Part shown: piece by piece, positions 793 to 47,992 of the stretch | Layout of the letters: each line of letters opens with the position of its first letter | How positions within the stretch are numbered: the first letter of the stretch is position 1 | Notes under the pieces: generated by a model | What the model was told of the DNA's origin: nothing | The model's input: the letters and a program-made list of their open reading frames with translations, nothing else | The model's database searches: none | Origin: Tunturibacter empetritectus | GTDB lineage: Bacteria; Acidobacteriota; Terriglobia; Terriglobales; Acidobacteriaceae | Length of the DNA stretch: 64,000 nucleotides | Reading direction: 5' to 3' | NCBI RefSeq assembly: GCF_040358985.1 | Contig: NZ_CP132932.1 | Span: 186,001 to 250,000, forward strand | Translations under genes and position numbers: made by a program

Positions 793-3700
793 ATGTCGCT
801 GGTTAAATTTGTGCCTATTGGTCTGGCCATCTCAGGTCTTCCACCTTACATTTCAAGCAGGTTTGAAGCAGCTGCGAGGTCCTTGTTAAGAGCAACGCTT
901 TTTTTCTGCGTATTCACTGCTATGACTGAGGCAGCGTTGGGCCAAGTCGCGACTTCGGTAAATGTGCCTACCTGGCGATACGACAATACTGAGGCGGGAG
1001 CAAATATTCAGGAGACACTACTGACTCCAACTAATGTTACTGGCTCATCGTTCGGTCTGCTTTTTTCGAGATCCGTAGATGGTTATGTCTATGCCCAGCC
1101 TCTCTACATCAACGGCCTTACGATGACCGATGGGCTCGTACACAACGTTGTTTTTGTAGCAACCGAGCATGACTCCGTTTACGCTTTCGATGCTGATTCG
1201 AATGCTGGCACAAATGCGCAGCCACTGTGGCAGATAAGCCTGCTCAACTCAGCTTATGGCGCTGCGCCTGGCGCAACCACGGTTCCCAGCGCGGATGTTG
1301 ACTCAAATGACATTGTTCCTGAAATAGGAATCACTAGTACCCCTGCGATCAACGTCACTGGCAACACGATGTACGTCATCGGCAAGACGAAGGAAGGTGG
1401 AGGATATGTACAGCGGCTGCATGCGATCAACATACTCACCGGAGCAGAGCAGCCAAACAGCCCAACAGTAATTCAAGCGACGGCGTTGGGCACAGGAGCT
1501 GGCAGCTCAGGCGGCCAAATCGCGTTTAGTCCGTTATGGCAGCTGAACCGCGCGGCCTTAAGTTACTACAACGGCATAGTGTATGCCGGGTTTGGTTCTC
1601 ACGGTGATAACGGCCCATGGCATGGCTGGTTGTTGGCATTTGATGGCACAACACTTGCCCAGACTGGGGCTATCTGTTTGTCTCCCAGCGGTTCTGGAGC
1701 TGGTGTCTGGGAGTCCGGTGCCGGAATGCCAATCGACAATGGAGGGACCAGCGGGCGAATGTTCTTTTCAACGGGTAATGGCTTGAACACTCCTTTCCCT
1801 CCTTTCAATCCGAGTGTCAATCTCGGGGACAGCGTTGTGGAAGTTAGTCTGTCAGGTGGCAGTCTTGCTGTGACTGATGCCTTCACTACCTTCAATCAGG
1901 CTGCGTTATCCGCAGCTGATCACGATCTGGGCTCCGGCGGGGTCCTTCTGTTGCCCGATCGAACAGGTCCCAATCCTCACCTCCTAATACAGGCGGGAAA
2001 AGAAGGACGCATCGTGGTTTTAGATCGAGATAATCTCGGTGGCTATTTACCCGGAGGCACTTCGAACACAAACGCTTTGCAGGATATTCTGGGCGCAACG
2101 ACAGGCATCTTCAGCACTCCCGCCTACTGGAATGGAAGTGTTTATATATGGGGTACTGGAGACTACCCTAAAGCGTTTAGCCTCAATAATGGTGTACTCG
2201 CATCTACCTCTTCCAGCCGGGGCACTATTACCTCCGGCTTCCCGGGGGCTAGTTTCGTTATATCTTCAAACGGGACACAGAACGGTATAGCGTGGGCTGT
2301 GCGGCAAACCGGGGGCACTGCTCCCGAGGTTCTCTACGCTTTCGATGCCACCGACTTGTCGAAGGTTTTGTATGAAAGCGATAAGCAGCCGCGCGACAAT
2401 CCTGGTCTGTCCAACAAATTTGTTGTACCTATTGTCACGAATGGCAAGGTGTACGTCGGAGCGCAGCATCAGCTTGATGTATTTGGCTTACTCAACGGCG
2501 AACCAGTTGCTGCGGTGCCAACCTTCATACCCAACGGGGGTGTCTTCGATTCGCCCCAACAGATATGGCTCAGTACGGCAACGCCCTCGACGAATATTTT
2601 TTATACGTTGGATGGAACAGCTCCTACCACTGGTTCCAATCTCTATACTTCGCCAATCTGGCTAACGGCCGCTACAACGGTCAAAGCGATGGCGAGTGGA
2701 ACCAACTACCTTCAGAGCTCGATAACCTCCGCAGCTTTCACTCCGTCACCATTGACGCCGTTGCCGGTATTCACCCCAGCCGGAGGCACCTATAACTCAG
2801 CGCAGCAGGTTGTATTGTCCGACAGGGACAGCTCCGCCACGATCTACTACACGCTGGATGGTTCCACGCCCACGACCTCATCTGCTGTCTATTCGAGTCC
2901 CATAGCGGTGGGAGCAAATACAACCATAAGCGCCTTAGCAGTAGATCCGGCGCGGCTGACAAATCACGCTGTCGCGGGCGCTTATGTTATACAGCCCGGC
3001 AGTTCGAGCATAAATTTTGGCAGCGGCTTTTCAACCGCTACTGGAATCACCTTTAACGGTTCAGCTACTACCAGTAGTGACGCGTGCCTTCTACTCACGA
3101 GCGGAGGCGTTAGCCAGGCGGGGAGCGCCTTCTATAACGTACCCATTGATATTCGCGCCTTTACGGCAGACTTTGCATTCCAGCTTATTAATCCGCAAGC
3201 GGACGGCTTCACGTTCACAATACAGAATGCAAAGGCCACTGCACTTGGAAGCAACGGCTCGGCGTTAGGTTATGCAAGCACGAAAGCCATGCCCACCAGC
3301 GTTGCTGTTAAGTTTGACTTCCACAACAACTCGGGAGAGGGCGACGACTCTACTGGTTTTTATATAGATGGAGCAATGCCCACGATTCCTGCCGTCGATA
3401 TGACGTCAAGCGGGGTCATTTTGAAGAGTGGCAACATCATGCAGGCTCATCTGTCTTATGACGGCACCACTCTAACGTTAACTCTGACCGACATCATCGC
3501 AGCTAAGACATTTATCTACAGTCAGGCGATTAATATTCCCCAGATTGTCGGAGCCAATACGGCATATGTAGGCTTCACAGGCGGATCCGGCGGAAGCACA
3601 GCAATCCAGAAGATCCTAACCTGGACCTACAGCGCCTCGGTGGCCGCAGTTCCTCCTGCATCTCCGACCTTCAGTCCCCCGAGTGGCAGCTATACGACGA

Positions 3701-16649: not shown

Positions 16650-19046
16650 ATGAATGCTCTCCTGGTCAAAGACGAAGCGTTGCGAATCGAGGCCCTCAAC
16701 CAATATGAGGTACTCAACAGTGCGCCCGATCCCATCCTGGATGACCTGACGAACCTGGCTGCGCAGATCTGTGACACGCCGGTCGCAGCTATCTCGCTGA
16801 TCGGTTCGGACCGCATCTGGCTACGCTCCCGTTTTGGGATCGACTCACAAGACGTTGCGCTCGGTAGCCTTCCCTGCGAGACCACTATTCTGGGCGACAC
16901 GGTCTACGAGATCTCCGACGCACGCAACGACCCCGACTACGCTCCCGATGGCATTCTTATCGATGGTCGTCTCTACCGGTTTTACGCGGGCGCGCCGCTG
17001 ACAACTCCCGGCGGAGTAAGCATTGGAGCATTGCTGGTACTGGACCGGCATCCCCGCACGCTGACTCCGGCTCAATCCTCGGCTCTCAGCGTCCTCAGCC
17101 GCCAGGTCATCACGCGTCTGGAGCTCAATGGTCGCATCCGTCAGATGGACCGTGCCGCTCGTTCACGCCAGCGTGTAGAGTCTGCCCTTACCGTGGAGCG
17201 AAACTTCGTCTCGGCCGTTCTCGATACCGTGGGCGCACTAGTCGCCGTATTCGATCCGGCCGGTCGAATCGTTCGTTTCAATCGCGCGTGCGAGAACGCA
17301 TCGGGTTACGACTTCCCCACCCTTGTCGGCCGCTACGCGTGGGACAAGCTGATCCCACGTCAGGAGATTCCCGAAGCCATTGAGACCTTCGAACGTCTCC
17401 GCTCTGGCCACTTCCCTGCCGCTTACGAGAATCAATGGCTCAACCGTGACGGCAGCATACGACGCATCGCGTGGTCCGCGACTGCGCTGACCGATACGCA
17501 GGGTCAGGTTGCATTCATCATTGCAACCGGCATTGATGTGACAACTCAACGCGCTGCCGAAGCGACCTTGCGCGAGAGCGAAGCGCGTTACCGCCAGCTC
17601 GTCGAAGGATCGCTGGGCATGGTCTGCACCCACGACCTGCGCGGAACACTTCTGTCGATCAACACTCACGGCGCCGAAACCCTGGGGCGCACGATCGAGG
17701 AGATGACCGGGCATAATCTCGAGGAGTTCATCGTGCCCGACAGGAAGGCCGCTCTGCCTGCCTACCTGAAAAAGATAGGCGAGACCGGCGAAGCGCAAGG
17801 CCTCCTACACCTCTCTCACAGCGATGGAGATATGCGCGTAGTCGCCTACCGGAACAAGCTGATCGTCGTGCCCGGACGCGCACCGTACGTTCTCGGCTTC
17901 GGTGTTGATATCAGCGAGCAGGTTCGCGCGGAAGGCAGACTCCGCACTCTCACGCGGCAATCCGACTCTATCCTCGAGTCTGTCGGCGACGGTATCTACG
18001 GTATCGATCTCGAAGGCAAGGTAACGGTCGTCAACTCCGCCGCGGCTCAGATGCTCGGCTACAAGCAGGAGGAGATGCTGGGCCGCAACATGCATCAACT
18101 GATCCACCACACACGCGCCGACGGTACACCTTACGCCTCCGCCGACTCACCGATCCGCAAGAGCCTTACCAACTTCGCGACGGTCCGCATCTCGAATGAG
18201 ATCTTCTGGCGCAAAGATGGCAGCTGCTTCCCGGTGGAGTATGTCGCGAGGCCGCAGATCGACTCGCAGTCGCCTGATTCGAGCGCACCCAAAGCGCTTG
18301 GTGTCGTTGTGGCATTCACCGATACGACCGAACGCCGCGCCCTCGACCGCATGAAAGACGAGTTCATCTCCACCGTCTCCCACGAGCTTCGCACGCCGCT
18401 TACTTCACTTCGTGGAGCGCTTGGCCTGCTCGCCGGCGGCGCACTCACCAATCGCCCGGAGAAGACTCAGCAGATGCTTGAGATTGCCATCAGTAACTCC
18501 GATCGGCTGGTGCGTTTGGTGAACGACATTCTCGACCTTGAGCGCATCAGCAGCGGCAAGACAGAGCTCCACTCGATGATGTGCAGCGCAGAAGATCTGC
18601 TGCGAAGAGCGGCGAGCGTTCAACAGACGCGCACTCCGCGGCCGAATATCCGCATCTTCTTCGCCGCTCATGGTGTCAACGTCTGGGCCGACCCTGACCG
18701 CATTCTGCAGACGCTGAACAATCTCATCTCAAACGCGATCAAGTTCTCTCCCGAAGGCAGCGAGATCCACCTTACAGCGCGCAATCTTGACGAGAATGAA
18801 GCGCTAATCGAGGTTCGCGATCAGGGCCGAGGCATCCCTGCTGATAAGCTCGAACACATCTTCGACCGCTTTCAGCAAGGCGATGCCTCGGACTCACGCG
18901 CGATGGGCGGCACAGGCCTCGGCCTGGCAATATGTCGTAGCATCATCAATCAACACCGCGGACGCATCTGGGCCACCAGCGCGCCCGACCAGGGCACCAT
19001 CTTCCACTTCACTCTCCCCACCAAACCCAGCACCAACCTACGCTAG
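16650..19046 (+). CDS. Hybrid-sensor histidine kinase (GAF-PAS-PAS-PAS-HisKA-HATPase)
   Basis: A cytosolic sensor kinase of about 798 residues; no membrane helix is seen. The order is GAF (about 20-165), PAS 1 (195-300), PAS 2 (315-425), PAS 3 (430-560), HisKA with the phospho-accepting His578 in STVSHELRTPL, and HATPase (about 675-790) with NNLISNAIKFS, DQGRGIP and GGTGLGLAI. The GAF domain begins with RIEALNQYEVLNSAPD, common in redox or light-sensing kinases, but no chromophore cysteine is evident. No response regulator lies next to it, so its partner is elsewhere. The ATG at 16650 is preferred over a GTG at 16608 whose ribosome site would overlap it. Confidence 0.9.
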   Translation: MNALLVKDEALRIEALNQYEVLNSAPDPILDDLTNLAAQICDTPVAAISLIGSDRIWLRSRFGIDSQDVALGSLPCETTILGDTVYEISDARNDPDYAPDGILIDGRLYRFYAGAPLTTPGGVSIGALLVLDRHPRTLTPAQSSALSVLSRQVITRLELNGRIRQMDRAARSRQRVESALTVERNFVSAVLDTVGALVAVFDPAGRIVRFNRACENASGYDFPTLVGRYAWDKLIPRQEIPEAIETFERLRSGHFPAAYENQWLNRDGSIRRIAWSATALTDTQGQVAFIIATGIDVTTQRAAEATLRESEARYRQLVEGSLGMVCTHDLRGTLLSINTHGAETLGRTIEEMTGHNLEEFIVPDRKAALPAYLKKIGETGEAQGLLHLSHSDGDMRVVAYRNKLIVVPGRAPYVLGFGVDISEQVRAEGRLRTLTRQSDSILESVGDGIYGIDLEGKVTVVNSAAAQMLGYKQEEMLGRNMHQLIHHTRADGTPYASADSPIRKSLTNFATVRISNEIFWRKDGSCFPVEYVARPQIDSQSPDSSAPKALGVVVAFTDTTERRALDRMKDEFISTVSHELRTPLTSLRGALGLLAGGALTNRPEKTQQMLEIAISNSDRLVRLVNDILDLERISSGKTELHSMMCSAEDLLRRAASVQQTRTPRPNIRIFFAAHGVNVWADPDRILQTLNNLISNAIKFSPEGSEIHLTARNLDENEALIEVRDQGRGIPADKLEHIFDRFQQGDASDSRAMGGTGLGLAICRSIINQHRGRIWATSAPDQGTIFHFTLPTKPSTNLR

Positions 19047-43260: not shown

Positions 43261-43833
43261 ATGCTGAGTCGATTCGGAGCTGGAGCGAGTAGAAAACTCG
43301 GAGTTCTCGCACGCGTTGTCTGGCCGCTTCTCGCCGTCTCGGCGTCTGTGGCTGCTTCGGCTCAAGCTGCTGCTGCGCCGGCACAGGCTGCTGCGCCGGT
43401 TCAGGCTGCTGCATCGGCTCAAACTGTTGCCGAAGCCCCGCCTCCGCCGGGTCAGGTTCGCATCCGGGTGATCAACGCGCTCACCAACGCGCCTGTCCAC
43501 GATGAGAGGTTGAATGTGGCTCTTCGCGAGGATCAGATCGGATCGGTCGCTATGGGGACCGACAAGAACGGATTTATCCTGGTGGATCCGAAGAAGGCGA
43601 CCATTCTCCGCATCCTCGCGAATATGTATGCGGACTGCAGGCCACGGAGTGAGCTCTATACCAACTACTCCGTTGCAGCGATTCTCAGCGCTGGAGTGAC
43701 AGCGGGCAATCTTTGCAGCAGTGCAAGCCCGAAGGCTAAGCCGGGCGAGCTCATCCTCTATGAGGTTCCCAAGACTTATCTTCGCCAGTACCCTGCACCG
43801 CCGGTCGATTCGCTGCCCCATAGTCCAAACTAA
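43261..43833 (+). CDS. Exported protein of unknown function between ilvB and ilvN
   Basis: 190 residues from ATG 43261, preceded by GAGAGGGG; a TTG at 43243 is also in frame. There is a long signal peptide with LARVVWPLLAVSASVAA. An Ala/Gln/Pro low-complexity linker (AQAAAAPAQAAAPVQAAA) joins it to a compact domain starting VRIRVINALTNAPVHDERLNVAL, with GTDKNGFILVDP and CRPRSELYTNYSVAAILSAGV. The start of the domain resembles carboxypeptidase-regulatory-like folds. Four Cys or fewer; no catalytic motif. Function unknown. Confidence 0.65.
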   Translation: MLSRFGAGASRKLGVLARVVWPLLAVSASVAASAQAAAAPAQAAAPVQAAASAQTVAEAPPPPGQVRIRVINALTNAPVHDERLNVALREDQIGSVAMGTDKNGFILVDPKKATILRILANMYADCRPRSELYTNYSVAAILSAGVTAGNLCSSASPKAKPGELILYEVPKTYLRQYPAPPVDSLPHSPN

Positions 43834-43880
43834 AACGCCGCGCTTCGTTACTAAACGCAGCACCCGGCTGAAAGGCACTT

Positions 43881-43892
43881 ATGCTCCACACC
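43881..43892 (+). repeat. 12-bp direct repeat, copy 1 (GNAT start)
   Basis: ATGCTCCACACC, identical to the first four codons of ilvN 617 bases downstream. See copy 2. Confidence 0.85.
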
Positions 43893-44516
43893 GAAGCTGC
43901 CGCACTGAACTATTTTTTGAGAGAAGATGAGTTGCCCAAGACACTCCAACTCGAGACTCCCCGTCTCCTTTTGCGCCGCTGGCAGGAGACTGACCGTGCA
44001 CCCTTCGCCGCAATGAACGCCGACCCGGCCGTTATGAGGTTTTACCCCGCTCCGTTCACACGCCAGGAGAGCGACGAGTCGATCGACCGCTACCTTGCGG
44101 CCTTCGAACGCGAGGGGTTCAGCTTCTTCGCCGCGACCCTGCGCGAGACGGGCGCGTTCGCCGGGACCATAGGACTGCAAACCATGCGCGACGCCGTACC
44201 CAATCTCCATCAACCCGCGGTCGAGATAGGCTGGCGCCTCACACAGGACCACCAGGGGCTGGGATTGGCGACGGAGGGCGCACGTGCCATCATCGATTTT
44301 GCATTCCGACAACTCGCACTCGCCGAGGTCGTTGCGATTACGACACTGGCTAACCATCCTTCGCGTCGCGTCATGGAGAAGTTAGGCATGACTCATCATC
44401 CTGAGCTCGACTTCAATCATCCCCGCGTTCCGTCAGGCCATCCGTATGAGCGCCACACACTTTACAGCCTGCACAACCCGAACATCTCCGAGGTCTCATG
44501 CTCCACACCTTTGTAG
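43881..44516 (+). CDS. GNAT-family N-acetyltransferase (RimJ/RimL type)
   Basis: Up to 211 residues. The GNAT fold starts at LQLETPRLLLRRWQETDRAPFAAM and has the acetyl-CoA loop at GWRLTQDHQGLGLATEGARAII, then VVAITTLANHPSRRVMEKLGM. The family acetylates protein N-termini or small amines. The first four codons (ATGCTCCACACC) are identical to those of ilvN, which this gene overlaps by 19 bases at its 3' end; TTG codons at 43917 or 43932 may be the true start. Position between ilvB and ilvN is unusual. The substrate is unknown. Confidence 0.85.
   Translation: MLHTEAAALNYFLREDELPKTLQLETPRLLLRRWQETDRAPFAAMNADPAVMRFYPAPFTRQESDESIDRYLAAFEREGFSFFAATLRETGAFAGTIGLQTMRDAVPNLHQPAVEIGWRLTQDHQGLGLATEGARAIIDFAFRQLALAEVVAITTLANHPSRRVMEKLGMTHHPELDFNHPRVPSGHPYERHTLYSLHNPNISEVSCSTPL
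44498..44509 (+). repeat. 12-bp direct repeat, copy 2 (ilvN start)
   Basis: ATGCTCCACACC at the ilvN start. The two copies bracket the GNAT gene almost exactly. Confidence 0.85.
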
Positions 44517-45112
44517 CTCTGGTCCAAGACAAACCCGGCGTGTTGACGCGTGTCGCCTCGCTGTTTCGCCGACTCAACATCAACATCGTCTCACTGACGG
44601 TGGGTGAGAGCGAGCGGGCCGATATCTCGCGGATGACGATCGTCTGCGAGGCGCCGGACCATGCTGCGCATCGCATTCGCGCCTCGCTCTATAAGCTTGA
44701 GATCACGGTGGAGGTGGACGAGGTGGGCCGGGCCGACGCCGTCATCCGCGAGCTCTGCCTGATCAAGGTTGCGGCCGGGCCAAAGACTCGCTCGCAGATC
44801 TTCGAGCTTGCCACCGTCTTCCGGGCGCGTGTGGTCGATCTGGCGCCTGAGTCGGTGATGCTTGAGATGACCGGGGCGGCCAGCAAGATTGAAGGGCTGG
44901 TCCAGGTGCTCACCGAGAGCGGATATACGATCCTTGAGGTCTCGCGCACGGGGCGCATGGCGATGCGGCGTGGCCACCACACCAGCCGCGTCTTGAAGGC
45001 GCTCGGCACGCCTGACCATGACCACAGCAATGAGACGTCGTTCCCTGAAAAGCCGGAGGCTGATGAGATTCTGCCGAATGAGTTCACCGATGTCCATGAG
45101 GAAGAGGCTTAG
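44498..45112 (+). CDS. ilvN: Acetolactate synthase, small (regulatory) subunit
   Basis: 204 residues. An ACT domain at the N-terminus (HTFVALVQDKPGVLTRVASL, then NINIVSLTVGESERADISRMTIV) binds valine for feedback control. The second regulatory domain follows (about 80-165, with ELCLIKVAAGPKTRSQIFELA and MLEMTGAASKIEGLVQVL). About 35 additional residues form an acidic tail (PEADEILPNEF, DVHEEEA). The start overlaps the GNAT gene by 19 bases, so its ribosome-binding site lies inside that gene (GAGGTCTC is the nearest purine stretch). Confidence 0.94.
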   Translation: MLHTFVALVQDKPGVLTRVASLFRRLNINIVSLTVGESERADISRMTIVCEAPDHAAHRIRASLYKLEITVEVDEVGRADAVIRELCLIKVAAGPKTRSQIFELATVFRARVVDLAPESVMLEMTGAASKIEGLVQVLTESGYTILEVSRTGRMAMRRGHHTSRVLKALGTPDHDHSNETSFPEKPEADEILPNEFTDVHEEEA

Positions 45113-45118
45113 TCTTTT

Positions 45119-46126
45119 ATGCCGGATTTTTACGAGAAACTCAAACTACAAAGCAAAGCCTCAAGAGCGAGCCGATTCTCGCTATTAGCTGGAATAGTCT
45201 TCGGAGTTGTTTACGGATTACTGTTCCGGCTTTCCACAGACGCAAATTTGGCTCAAAGGTCAAACCACACATCAACGATGACCTTGTCTTTCCTCGTTCT
45301 CGGTTCCTTCTTCGTAGGCTTGTTGACGGTTTATCTCTCGGAGAGGGTAGTACATCGAAACGCAGTGTTATGGATCGTTGCTCCTTGGCCGAGCATTCTG
45401 CTCGCAAGCCTTCTCTCGGTTGTCTTTCGGATAGAAGGTTTGATTTGCCTTATCTTTGCTTTGCCTATCGCTCTTGTCTTCTCGTCTGTTGGGGGTCTGG
45501 TCGGCGGTGCCGTCGCACGAAAGTCTGCCGACAACTTCCGTACGGTTTCCTGCGTGGCACTCGTGCCGTTTTTGCTGGCACCTGCTGAAACGTATCTCAC
45601 TATGCCTGTGCAGACGCATACCGTTGCCAGCGAAATCGTCATTCACGCTTCTCCCTCAGTTATTTGGCACAACATAATTCGCGTTCCCCCTATCTCCCCG
45701 GCAGAACTGCAATCGACCTGGACACACCAGATCGGCTTTCCTCGTCCCGTCGAGGCTACGCTCTCGTATGAGGGGGCAGGCGGCATTCGTCACGCAAGTT
45801 TCGAACGCGGTCTGGTCTTTATTGAGACCGTTACGGCCTGGGAGCCTGAGCATCGCATCGCCTTCAGCATTAAGGCGGATACGGCTCACATTCCTCCTAC
45901 AACGCTCGACGAACACGTGACCATCGGTGGTCCCTACTTCGACGTTCTTGATGGAGAGTATCGTCTCGAATCACTACCGAATGGCGATACTCTTTTGCAC
46001 CTGACCAGCCACCAGAGACTATCTACTGACTTCAACAGCTACGCCGGACTATGGTCGGACGCAGTCATGCAGAATCTCCAAATCAGTATTCTTAAAGTGA
46101 TTCAACACCGCTGCGAGCACACGTAA
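45119..46126 (+). CDS. Membrane protein with C-terminal SRPBCC-like domain, between ilvN and ilvC
   Basis: 335 residues starting six bases after the ilvN stop. Four helices are likely in the N-terminal half (FSLLAGIVFGVVYGLLF, TLSFLVLGSFFVGLLTVYL, PSILLASLLSVVFRIEGL, FALPIALVFSSVGGLVGG). From about residue 170 a START/SRPBCC-like domain follows (SEIVIHASPSVIWHNIIRVP, SYEGAGGIRHASFERGLVFIE, GPYFDVLDGEYRLESLPNGDTLLHLTSHQRL). Such domains bind lipids or other hydrophobic ligands. It has no evident relation to branched-chain amino acids. Function unknown. Confidence 0.75.
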   Translation: MPDFYEKLKLQSKASRASRFSLLAGIVFGVVYGLLFRLSTDANLAQRSNHTSTMTLSFLVLGSFFVGLLTVYLSERVVHRNAVLWIVAPWPSILLASLLSVVFRIEGLICLIFALPIALVFSSVGGLVGGAVARKSADNFRTVSCVALVPFLLAPAETYLTMPVQTHTVASEIVIHASPSVIWHNIIRVPPISPAELQSTWTHQIGFPRPVEATLSYEGAGGIRHASFERGLVFIETVTAWEPEHRIAFSIKADTAHIPPTTLDEHVTIGGPYFDVLDGEYRLESLPNGDTLLHLTSHQRLSTDFNSYAGLWSDAVMQNLQISILKVIQHRCEHT

Positions 46127-46162
46127 ACTCTAAACACAAATCAAAGGGAAAGAACAAACACA

Positions 46163-46231
46163 ATGGCAAAGGCATACCACGACGTAGACGCAGTGTATTG
46201 GCATGCTCCTAGCCAAGGATTGGTGCGATGA
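46163..46231 (+). other. 22-codon minigene: duplicated copy of the ilvC start
   Basis: Positions 46163-46193 match the first 31 bases of ilvC (46967-46997) with two differences, giving MAKAYHDVDA versus [10 protein letters not shown]. The A-rich leader GAAAGAA..CAA before the ATG is also similar. After the match the frame continues to a TGA at 46229-46231 that overlaps the ATG of the next gene (ATGA). It is either a decaying remnant or a leader that couples translation of the inserted gene. Confidence 0.8.
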
Positions 46232-46926
46232 AGATTTTGGTTTTCGCTGTTGTCGCGCTTGCGGCGATTCCTGGTTGGTGCCAGAGCGCCCTGCCGCCCG
46301 CGCCGACAGACCCATGCAGCTTCGATAGCGCACCCGCGAGTACGCCAGTACGGCTGCTGCTGGGTACCGCTCCAGTTCCTTACAACTTTGCGTGCGGGGT
46401 GAACAGGCCTGCGGGCGTGTGCGTTTCGTTGCCGATCAAGCCCGGCATTGTTGTCAGCGTGGGAGCGGAGAAGAGTGGCTGGACCTGCATTACGGGGGGC
46501 GACTCGACGAGCGGCTGGGTTCCTTCGACGAGTCTTGGTGAGTTGCCCACGACGCCGCGGATTTCGCCGAGTGCGTGGATTGGGTGGTGGCAGCAAGGGA
46601 AGAGTCGCCCAGGCATGAGGAACGACCGCCTGCTGATCACTAAGGGTGACGCTCCAAACAGCTTTCACGTGAGCGGCAGGGCCTACTGGTATGGACTTAA
46701 CGACAACGTACACCTCGGCGAGGTGAAGGCCGAAGGCTTTGTGGTCGGCCCGTATATGCACATCATTGAAGGAGACGAACTCTCCGGCTGTGTCATCGAT
46801 CTGAAGTACGATGTCTCCACTCGCCAGTTTAGCGCTTACGATAATCAAAGGTGCGGCGGCGCGAATGTTCGCTTTGGACGCACCTGGACAAAGTTCACCC
46901 CTTCGACCACACGTTCCCAGCGTTGA
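46228..46926 (+). CDS. Exported protein of unknown function inserted ahead of ilvC
   Basis: 232 residues: a signal peptide ([17 protein letters not shown], cleavage near WCQSA), an N-terminal SH3-like region ([26 protein letters not shown]) and a C-terminal part with [38 protein letters not shown] and [21 protein letters not shown]. Four to six Cys suggest disulphides in the periplasm. The start overlaps the ilvC-start remnant (ATGA) and the gene ends 40 bases before the real ilvC, so it sits between two copies of the ilvC start. I do not recognise a family. Confidence 0.7.

Positions 46927-46966: not shown

Positions 46967-47992
<1,026 letters not shown>

Follow-up and report, generated by a model that had tools for sequence, protein, structure and literature searches.

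The window, a 64,000-nucleotide stretch of Tunturibacter empetritectus DNA, carries ilvB, ilvN and ilvC in that order, with accessory genes set between them (Table 1). The gap between ilvB and ilvN holds two long open reading frames (ORFs) only: carb, which encodes a small protein, and a GNAT-domain ORF that overlaps ilvN by 19 bases, its stop codon lying inside the first 19 bases of ilvN. The ilvN product scores 145.1 bits against TIGR00119 (equivalog cut-off 56.9), and residues 28–171 of the GNAT ORF match Acetyltransf_3 (PF13302) at 124.8 bits (cut-off 25.4). An earlier note had pointed out that the same 12 bases open both the GNAT gene and ilvN, and this exact repeat is confirmed. The 12-mer, ATGCTCCACACC, lies at 43881–43892 and again at 44498–44509, with a start-to-start spacing of 617 bases. 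A distance of 47 bases separates the end of the carb ORF from the first of these copies, referred to here as the ilvN stub.

Table 1 Genes, leaders and relict starts between ilvB and ilvC in the window
Feature	Position	Strand	Basis or remark
carb, small protein	43261–43833	+	Exported-looking N-terminus by eye
Leader of displaced ilvN start	43831–43880	+	Ribosome-binding site GAAAGG; match to leaders of GNAT-less sisters
Relict of ilvN, first 12 bases	43881–43892	+	Now ATG and three codons (MLHT) of the GNAT ORF; repeat match; leader match in sisters
GNAT-domain ORF	43881–44516	+	211 aa; first 12-mer copy contains its ATG
Probable original 5' spacer of GNAT, now part of its open frame	43893–43931	+	EAAALNYFLREDE; spacer shared with G018; low pLDDT
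GNAT acetyltransferase proper (Acetyltransf_3)	43932–44516	+	Domain, homologue starts, predicted fold
Leader of intact ilvN, GNAT–ilvN overlap type	44490–44497	+	gaggtctc; identical before ilvN in G065 and G018
Intact ilvN, acetolactate synthase small subunit	44498–45112	+	Second 12-mer copy contains its ATG
Leader of displaced ilvC start	46123–46162	+	Score 26.5 to G067 ilvC leader
Relict of ilvC, first 31 bases	46163–46193	+	Two mismatches; alignment and profile
22-codon mini-ORF from ilvC relict	46163–46231	+	TGA overlaps next gene's ATG (ATGA)
Inserted gene	46228–46926	+	Exported-looking N-terminus by eye; SH3_4 match below Pfam cut-off
Intact ilvC	46967–47992	+	Leader of G002 type

Taken alone, the 12-base match is only suggestive of a displaced ilvN start. 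The 5.03-Mb genome holds four exact copies of the 12-mer, the other two lying far inside longer open frames. Two random starts would share all nine bases after the ATG with a probability between 6e-6, for independent positions, and 1e-4, the latter being 2 of 19,900 pairs from 200 roughly called starts. Over some 4,300 neighbouring gene pairs (a round figure), this corresponds to 0.03–0.4 chance pairs like GNAT and ilvN per genome. When the ilvN start was aligned blindly with its own upstream gap, the 12-mer did not stand out (score 13, equalled in 7 of 60 shuffles), nor was it picked out by a profile search with ilvN starts. The statement in the earlier note that such a match is unlikely by chance was too strong for the 12-mer by itself; it is the leader homology in sister genomes, described below, that argues strongly against chance.

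Starts and leaders of the GNAT gene and ilvN

The GNAT reading frame is open from both ATG 43881 and TTG 43932, the latter being codon 18 of the window ORF and probably the ancestral start of the gene. In three of the five close species in which GNAT overlaps ilvN (G061, G070 and G075), the first ATG, GTG or TTG of the frame within the gap is a TTG aligned with 43932. The G065 frame has ATGs upstream, and that of G018 continues further upstream with no clear start. By eye, the segment 43893–43931 has TTTTTTGAGA in common with the GNAT spacer of G018. The match to the closest solved relative by sequence, the acetyltransferase PA3944 (PDB 6edd, E 2.4e-41), covers residues 23–197 and omits the first 22 residues of the window GNAT ORF. 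AlphaFold2, run with nine sequences, predicted a confident fold (mean pLDDT 86.3) between two stretches with pLDDT below 50, residues 1–17 and 205–211; in so shallow an alignment (nine rows, sparse at both ends, with residues 1–7 in two of them only) low pLDDT at the N-terminus is weak evidence. Homologue starts, predicted fold, and PDB and Pfam boundaries support the earlier proposal that the acetyltransferase proper starts at a TTG further in.

A GNAT homologue of at least 57% identity is present in 12 of 62 genus genomes, the window's own included. Among the 11 others, MLHT stands at the GNAT start in the same-species strain only and is missing from the 10 genomes of other species. It is also missing from two weaker homologues, L047 and L048; the occurrence of MLHT on GNATs away from ilvN, which would speak against an ilvN origin, was not observed in these two. 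GNATs 56–69% identical to the window's also occupy the ilvB–ilvN gap in further genera of the family (L123 in G291, L127 in G279, L142 in G179 and L143 in G260), and the association of GNAT with this gap looks old for that reason. Between two strains of the window species, 20 substitutions separate the GNAT ORFs (13 synonymous, range 43944–44432) while ilvB and ilvN are identical, which suggests a separate recent history for the GNAT block. The IlvN of the same-species strain G063 is identical to the window's.

ATG 43881 lies at the usual distance after GAAAGG, and because of this the ATG of the captured ilvN stub is probably used for GNAT translation. RNA folding near both starts was unremarkable (z 0.80 and -1.16), and scans for promoters and terminators returned no more than in shuffles.

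The ilvB–ilvC interval was compared with those of 56 further genomes of the genus and 40 from other genera in the family; an ilvN match was obtained in 57 of the 62 genus genomes searched. The 50 bases before the window GNAT match the ilvN leader in all five GNAT-less sisters of one kind (G032, G064, G029, G002 and G067) and the relict-start leader in both GNAT-less sisters of another (G025 and G014), with z values of 3.5–8.5 for these seven out of 18 genomes compared. Against the five species in which GNAT overlaps ilvN (G065, G018, G070, G061 and G075) the same leader gave z values of -1.6 to -0.7, and against the remaining six genomes 1.0 to 3.0. In the first five sisters the ilvN start reads tgaaaggcac(tt/ac)ATGCT(C/T)CACAC, and in G064 ilvN leader and start equal the window GNAT start exactly over 24 bases, tgaaaggcacttATGCTCCACACC. 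G025 and G014 carry a tgaaaggcac-type leader before their relict start and have their ilvN under another leader. In both leader and start, the window GNAT is homologous to ilvN starts of relatives that lack the insert, as expected of a displaced 5' end. On this comparison of sister and overlap-species leaders, the start at 43881 is the old ilvN start, and the leader in front of the start at 44498 is of the GNAT-overlap type. The suggestion that the MLHT codons are a displaced ilvN start is thereby supported, by the ilvN leaders of the GNAT-less sisters and by the 24-base match in G064.

Over its first 60 bases, the window ilvN is 93–97% like that of G032, G025, G014 and G064, 73–77% like that of the GNAT-less G029, G002 and G067, and 77–85% like that of the overlap species. 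As judged from these identities, its type matches that of the nearest sisters from close to the start codon onward. In a gyrB tree of 28 genomes, the nearest sisters of the window are without GNAT, and the GNAT–ilvN overlap type is basal in this clade (G075, G070, G018 and G065), with G061 placed elsewhere.

Relict starts at ilvC and in relatives

The earlier note had seen the repeat as mirroring a duplication at ilvC, and this 5' copy of ilvC is real. In comparisons of the relict with the ilvC start at 46967, none of 60 shuffles did as well, and the profile gave E 2e-7. Among 15 genomes compared, the leader of the relict is nearest to the ilvC leader of G067 (Table 1; next G068, 15.0), and G067 has the same gene upstream of ilvC as the window relict. 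The true ilvC leader of the window scores 3.5 to the ilvC leader of G067 and is nearest to that of G002 (18.0 versus 4.0; next G009, 8.0, again among 15 genomes).

A joint between two core genes can be read in G032. There, ATGGCTAAG, which equals bases 1–9 of ilvC, closes a 118-aa gene; in G014 and G025 this gene ends likewise at the real ilvC start. In G032, ATGGCTAAG is followed directly by TTTGCGGAAGATGAGATCTGATGCC, which is, with two differences, the ilvN 3' end and next-gene start of G025. The ilvC 5' end is fused to the ilvN 3' end, ahead of a second gene. Such a fusion of a core-gene 5' part to sequence from upstream in another copy is what a recombination joint leaves, and G032 appears to hold two operon versions joined in series. 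The 21-base ilvC relict of G032 reached z 5.0 by alignment, was missed by the ilvC profile, and rests on the comparison of leader and joint.

A DNA profile of the first 75 bases of ilvN was run over 87 usable ilvB–ilvN gaps from 97 genomes (10 genomes were dropped, nine with gaps below 40 bases and one with ilvN cut). At E ≤ 0.011 the profile found 11 relict ilvN starts in 8 of the 87 gaps: two each in G017, G070 and G015, and one each in G311, G082, G075, G072 and G025. All 11 begin exactly at the ATG, and 10 open in-frame ORFs of 147–197 aa. The best E in a block-shuffle control was 0.067 (20 shuffles), and at E up to 1 the profile found nothing in 57 ilvN–ilvC gaps or 56 reversed ilvB–ilvN gaps of the genus. 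The relict matches span 24 to 66 profile positions, compared with 12 bases in the window. Several relicts resemble an ilvN from another genome more than the one in their own, which fits old copies. A copy in G014 (E 0.14), a decayed twin of the G025 relict, stands outside the 11; the insert shared by G025 and G014 is missing from their nearest relatives, G032 and G064. The profile did not confirm the alignment matches of G030 (z 4.0) and G011 (z 3.3), which are not counted. The two controls of this alignment scan also gave three matches with z of at least 3 among the matches listed (G082 3.1, G072 4.5 and G012 3.3), and our conclusions for this reason rest on the profile search.

Two classes of relict-headed gene are akin to the window carb, at 50–63% and 30–32% identity, and an ilvN-start origin of the carb N-terminus is clear only in these homologues from relatives. 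The window carb matched the ilvN-start profile at E 0.02–0.04 over the inner part of the profile only, which is no more than suggestive; its N-terminus may be an older, decayed copy of the ilvN start. A lipoprotein-like gene occurs in 2 of 62 genus genomes (G017 and G070) and has an ilvN head in both. Another lipoprotein-like gene is headed by an ilvN relict in G311; genes resembling it in G239 and G279 have, by eye, different N-termini. One relict-headed gene of G017 starts with MLHTFVALVQDKPGVLTRVAS, identical to its own ilvN over 63 bases from the ATG (71 with the leader), and continues into VICSGC, which resembles a lipobox. Judged by eye, several of the relict-headed proteins look like signal-peptide proteins or lipoproteins. 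In G025 the relict forms a mini-ORF of 23 codons, and its TGA shares bases with the GTG that starts the following ORF (GTGA).

Three further features of these gaps were recorded. The G025 mini-ORF, MLHTFVVLVVVNHVSNPAYERRQ (L068, 3190–3261 in ilvN orientation), is rich in Val and Leu and lies inside the operon; leader peptides of ilv attenuators are also rich in Val and Leu. In L079 (G070, 2624–3566) and L118 (G017, 2618–3578), again in ilvN orientation, two successive genes, each with its own copy of the ilvN start, precede ilvN. Gaps between matched ends within the genus run from 72 to 3206 bases for ilvB–ilvN and from 57 to 1996 bases for ilvN–ilvC. The ilv operon hosts many different accessory genes.

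Start copies elsewhere in the genome were surveyed in G000 and G070. With a 90-base start query, no score of at least 20 was obtained among 299 roughly called G000 genes; the window's ilvC, the start of which had been called too far upstream, also escaped this query. With a 280-base query, a score of 20 was reached by 31 of 593 own pairs versus 12 of 1779 mismatched pairs in G000, and by 16 of 286 versus 5 of 858 in G070. An excess of start–upstream similarity is thus present outside ilv too. Among the nine best per genome, the start-spanning ones were G070 ilvN, L170, L178, L312 (G000), L301, L295 (G070) and L304. On visual inspection, L170, L178, L312, L301 and L295 were taken for longer repeats or paralogues, although L295 (score 25) is doubtful. 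The window ilvC is also among the nine best, its relict match beginning beyond the miscalled start. Near position 17801, L304 holds GCGAAAGGATGGGGCACCC, a dispersed repeat found at 14 genome places with at most two mismatches (C1:617791 and 13 others), and this repeat can pose as gene starts (MGHP). In what was inspected, ilv stands out among the nine best per genome, and short start-anchored copies did not show as a general habit in the G000 and G070 samples.

Proposed series-joining and its alternatives

We consider it fairly probable that the ilvB–ilvN layout of the window was made by out-of-register recombination that joined two operon versions in series. Version A would have read carb, leader, ilvN, and version B would have read GNAT overlapping ilvN. 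Recombination would have broken A after the first 12 bases of its ilvN and linked it to the spacer before the GNAT of B. An intact ilvN would follow this joint, and both accessory genes and one working ilvN would be kept. The ilvN stub of A, with its ribosome-binding site and ATG in frame with GNAT, would probably start GNAT translation and add 17 residues, predicted to be unfolded, before the old TTG start. The same event would have occurred at ilvC in the window and repeatedly at ilvN in relatives, where the stubs appear to head other, mostly exported-looking proteins. The source was perhaps uptake of DNA from relatives. Because the window ilvN is of the nearest sisters' type, version B would either have given little ilvN or have been a closer, unsampled strain. 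A close GNAT donor was not found, the best GNATs of other species being only 73–77% identical in DNA.

The joint could instead be old. If the ancestor of the group had leader, ilvN stub, GNAT and ilvN in this order, a deletion between the two short copies would have removed GNAT from the GNAT-less sisters and restored a scarless leader and ilvN. The 12-mer copies are direct repeats 617 bases apart, and the basal position of the GNAT–ilvN overlap type in the 28-genome gyrB tree also allows an old joint followed by losses. An ilvN of the nearest sisters' type is what losses would leave, and it fits either history. Such a history, however, would require several separate losses (in G029, G002/G067, G014/G064 and G032/G025), and no stub is present before GNAT in G065, G018, G070, G075 or G061. 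Because these five overlap species show no stub, we favour a recent gain of the GNAT joint over an old joint with losses and regard the latter as unlikely. An old joint would change the age of the joint and not its nature.

What keeps the copies might also be the stop codon that they offer an upstream gene inside the start of the following one, rather than their start codon. Two genomes fit this account: the end of GNAT falls within a stub in G070, and ATGGCTAAG closes the 118-aa gene of G032. As an account of the window it is improbable: carb ends 47 bases before the stub, and long in-frame ORFs are opened by 10 of the 11 stubs in relatives.

We rate as very improbable that GNAT is a mobile cassette or element, brought in by site-specific insertion or flanked by a 12-base target-site duplication, even though an exact 12-base direct repeat flanks the insert and the ilvN start has been used repeatedly in relatives. 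No inverted repeats of at least 10 bases occur in 43840–44530, carb and GNAT are the only long ORFs of the gap, and the copies vary in length from 12 to about 70 bases; the terminal inverted repeats and constant duplication length of a transposon are both lacking. The right junction of gaggtctc with ilvN is already present in other species, and the ilvC 5'/ilvN 3' fusion of G032 is not a product of target-site duplication. Lastly, a chance match of two start regions, with which the unremarkable 12-mer of the blind scans and the expected number of neighbouring pairs would agree, is exceedingly improbable and is rejected as the sole explanation on leader homology, as the match extends into the leader in sister genomes, the case at ilvC is stronger, and the pattern recurs in relatives.

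Possible growth of the ilv operon

Series-joining of operon versions has counterparts in known systems. Homology-facilitated illegitimate recombination, homologous at one end and illegitimate at the other, would leave one side with a truncated copy; here, the proposed route is read from the joints. Operons grow by horizontal transfer into ‘mosaic operons’, in which other genes are placed inside a conserved operon, and we know of no mention in that literature of 5' stubs of the next gene being reused as starts. Among open-licence papers, titles and abstract beginnings gave no description of reused ilv start stubs.

In pneumococcus, tandem duplications arise by unequal crossing-over in natural transformation and give merodiploids (PMC3784515). 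There, donor DNA pairs at an alternative site and bridges two copies, leaving a series repeat beside an intact copy, as in the series-joining proposed here. The pneumococcal duplications are large and involve long repeats, whereas those described here are short core-gene 5' stubs read from assembled genomes.

The window case is one instance of a pattern that recurs at the ilv operon. We tentatively put forward, as a possibility for Edaphobacter, Granulicella and near relatives, that the ilv operon grows by series-joining and that leftover ilvN and ilvC 5' stubs are raw material that recurs, supplying incoming genes with a ribosome-binding site and a start codon ready for use. More than once, a stub coding for the N-terminus of a cytosolic enzyme subunit would have turned into the leading part of a signal peptide or lipoprotein leader; as direct repeats, the stubs would also allow scarless loss of the incoming genes.

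The addition of a gene inside a working biosynthetic operon is usually invisible later. Here the joints are still readable, including which version each side resembles, where the cut lies and what became of the leftover start in the newcomer. For annotation, this serves as a warning: when unrelated proteins of these genomes carry MLHTF…-like N-termini, those may derive from ilvN. The relict-headed genes may also let one read how export signals were built on the first codons of a cytosolic protein. The ilv operon of these bacteria shows a way in which genes can join a working operon and may acquire new starts.
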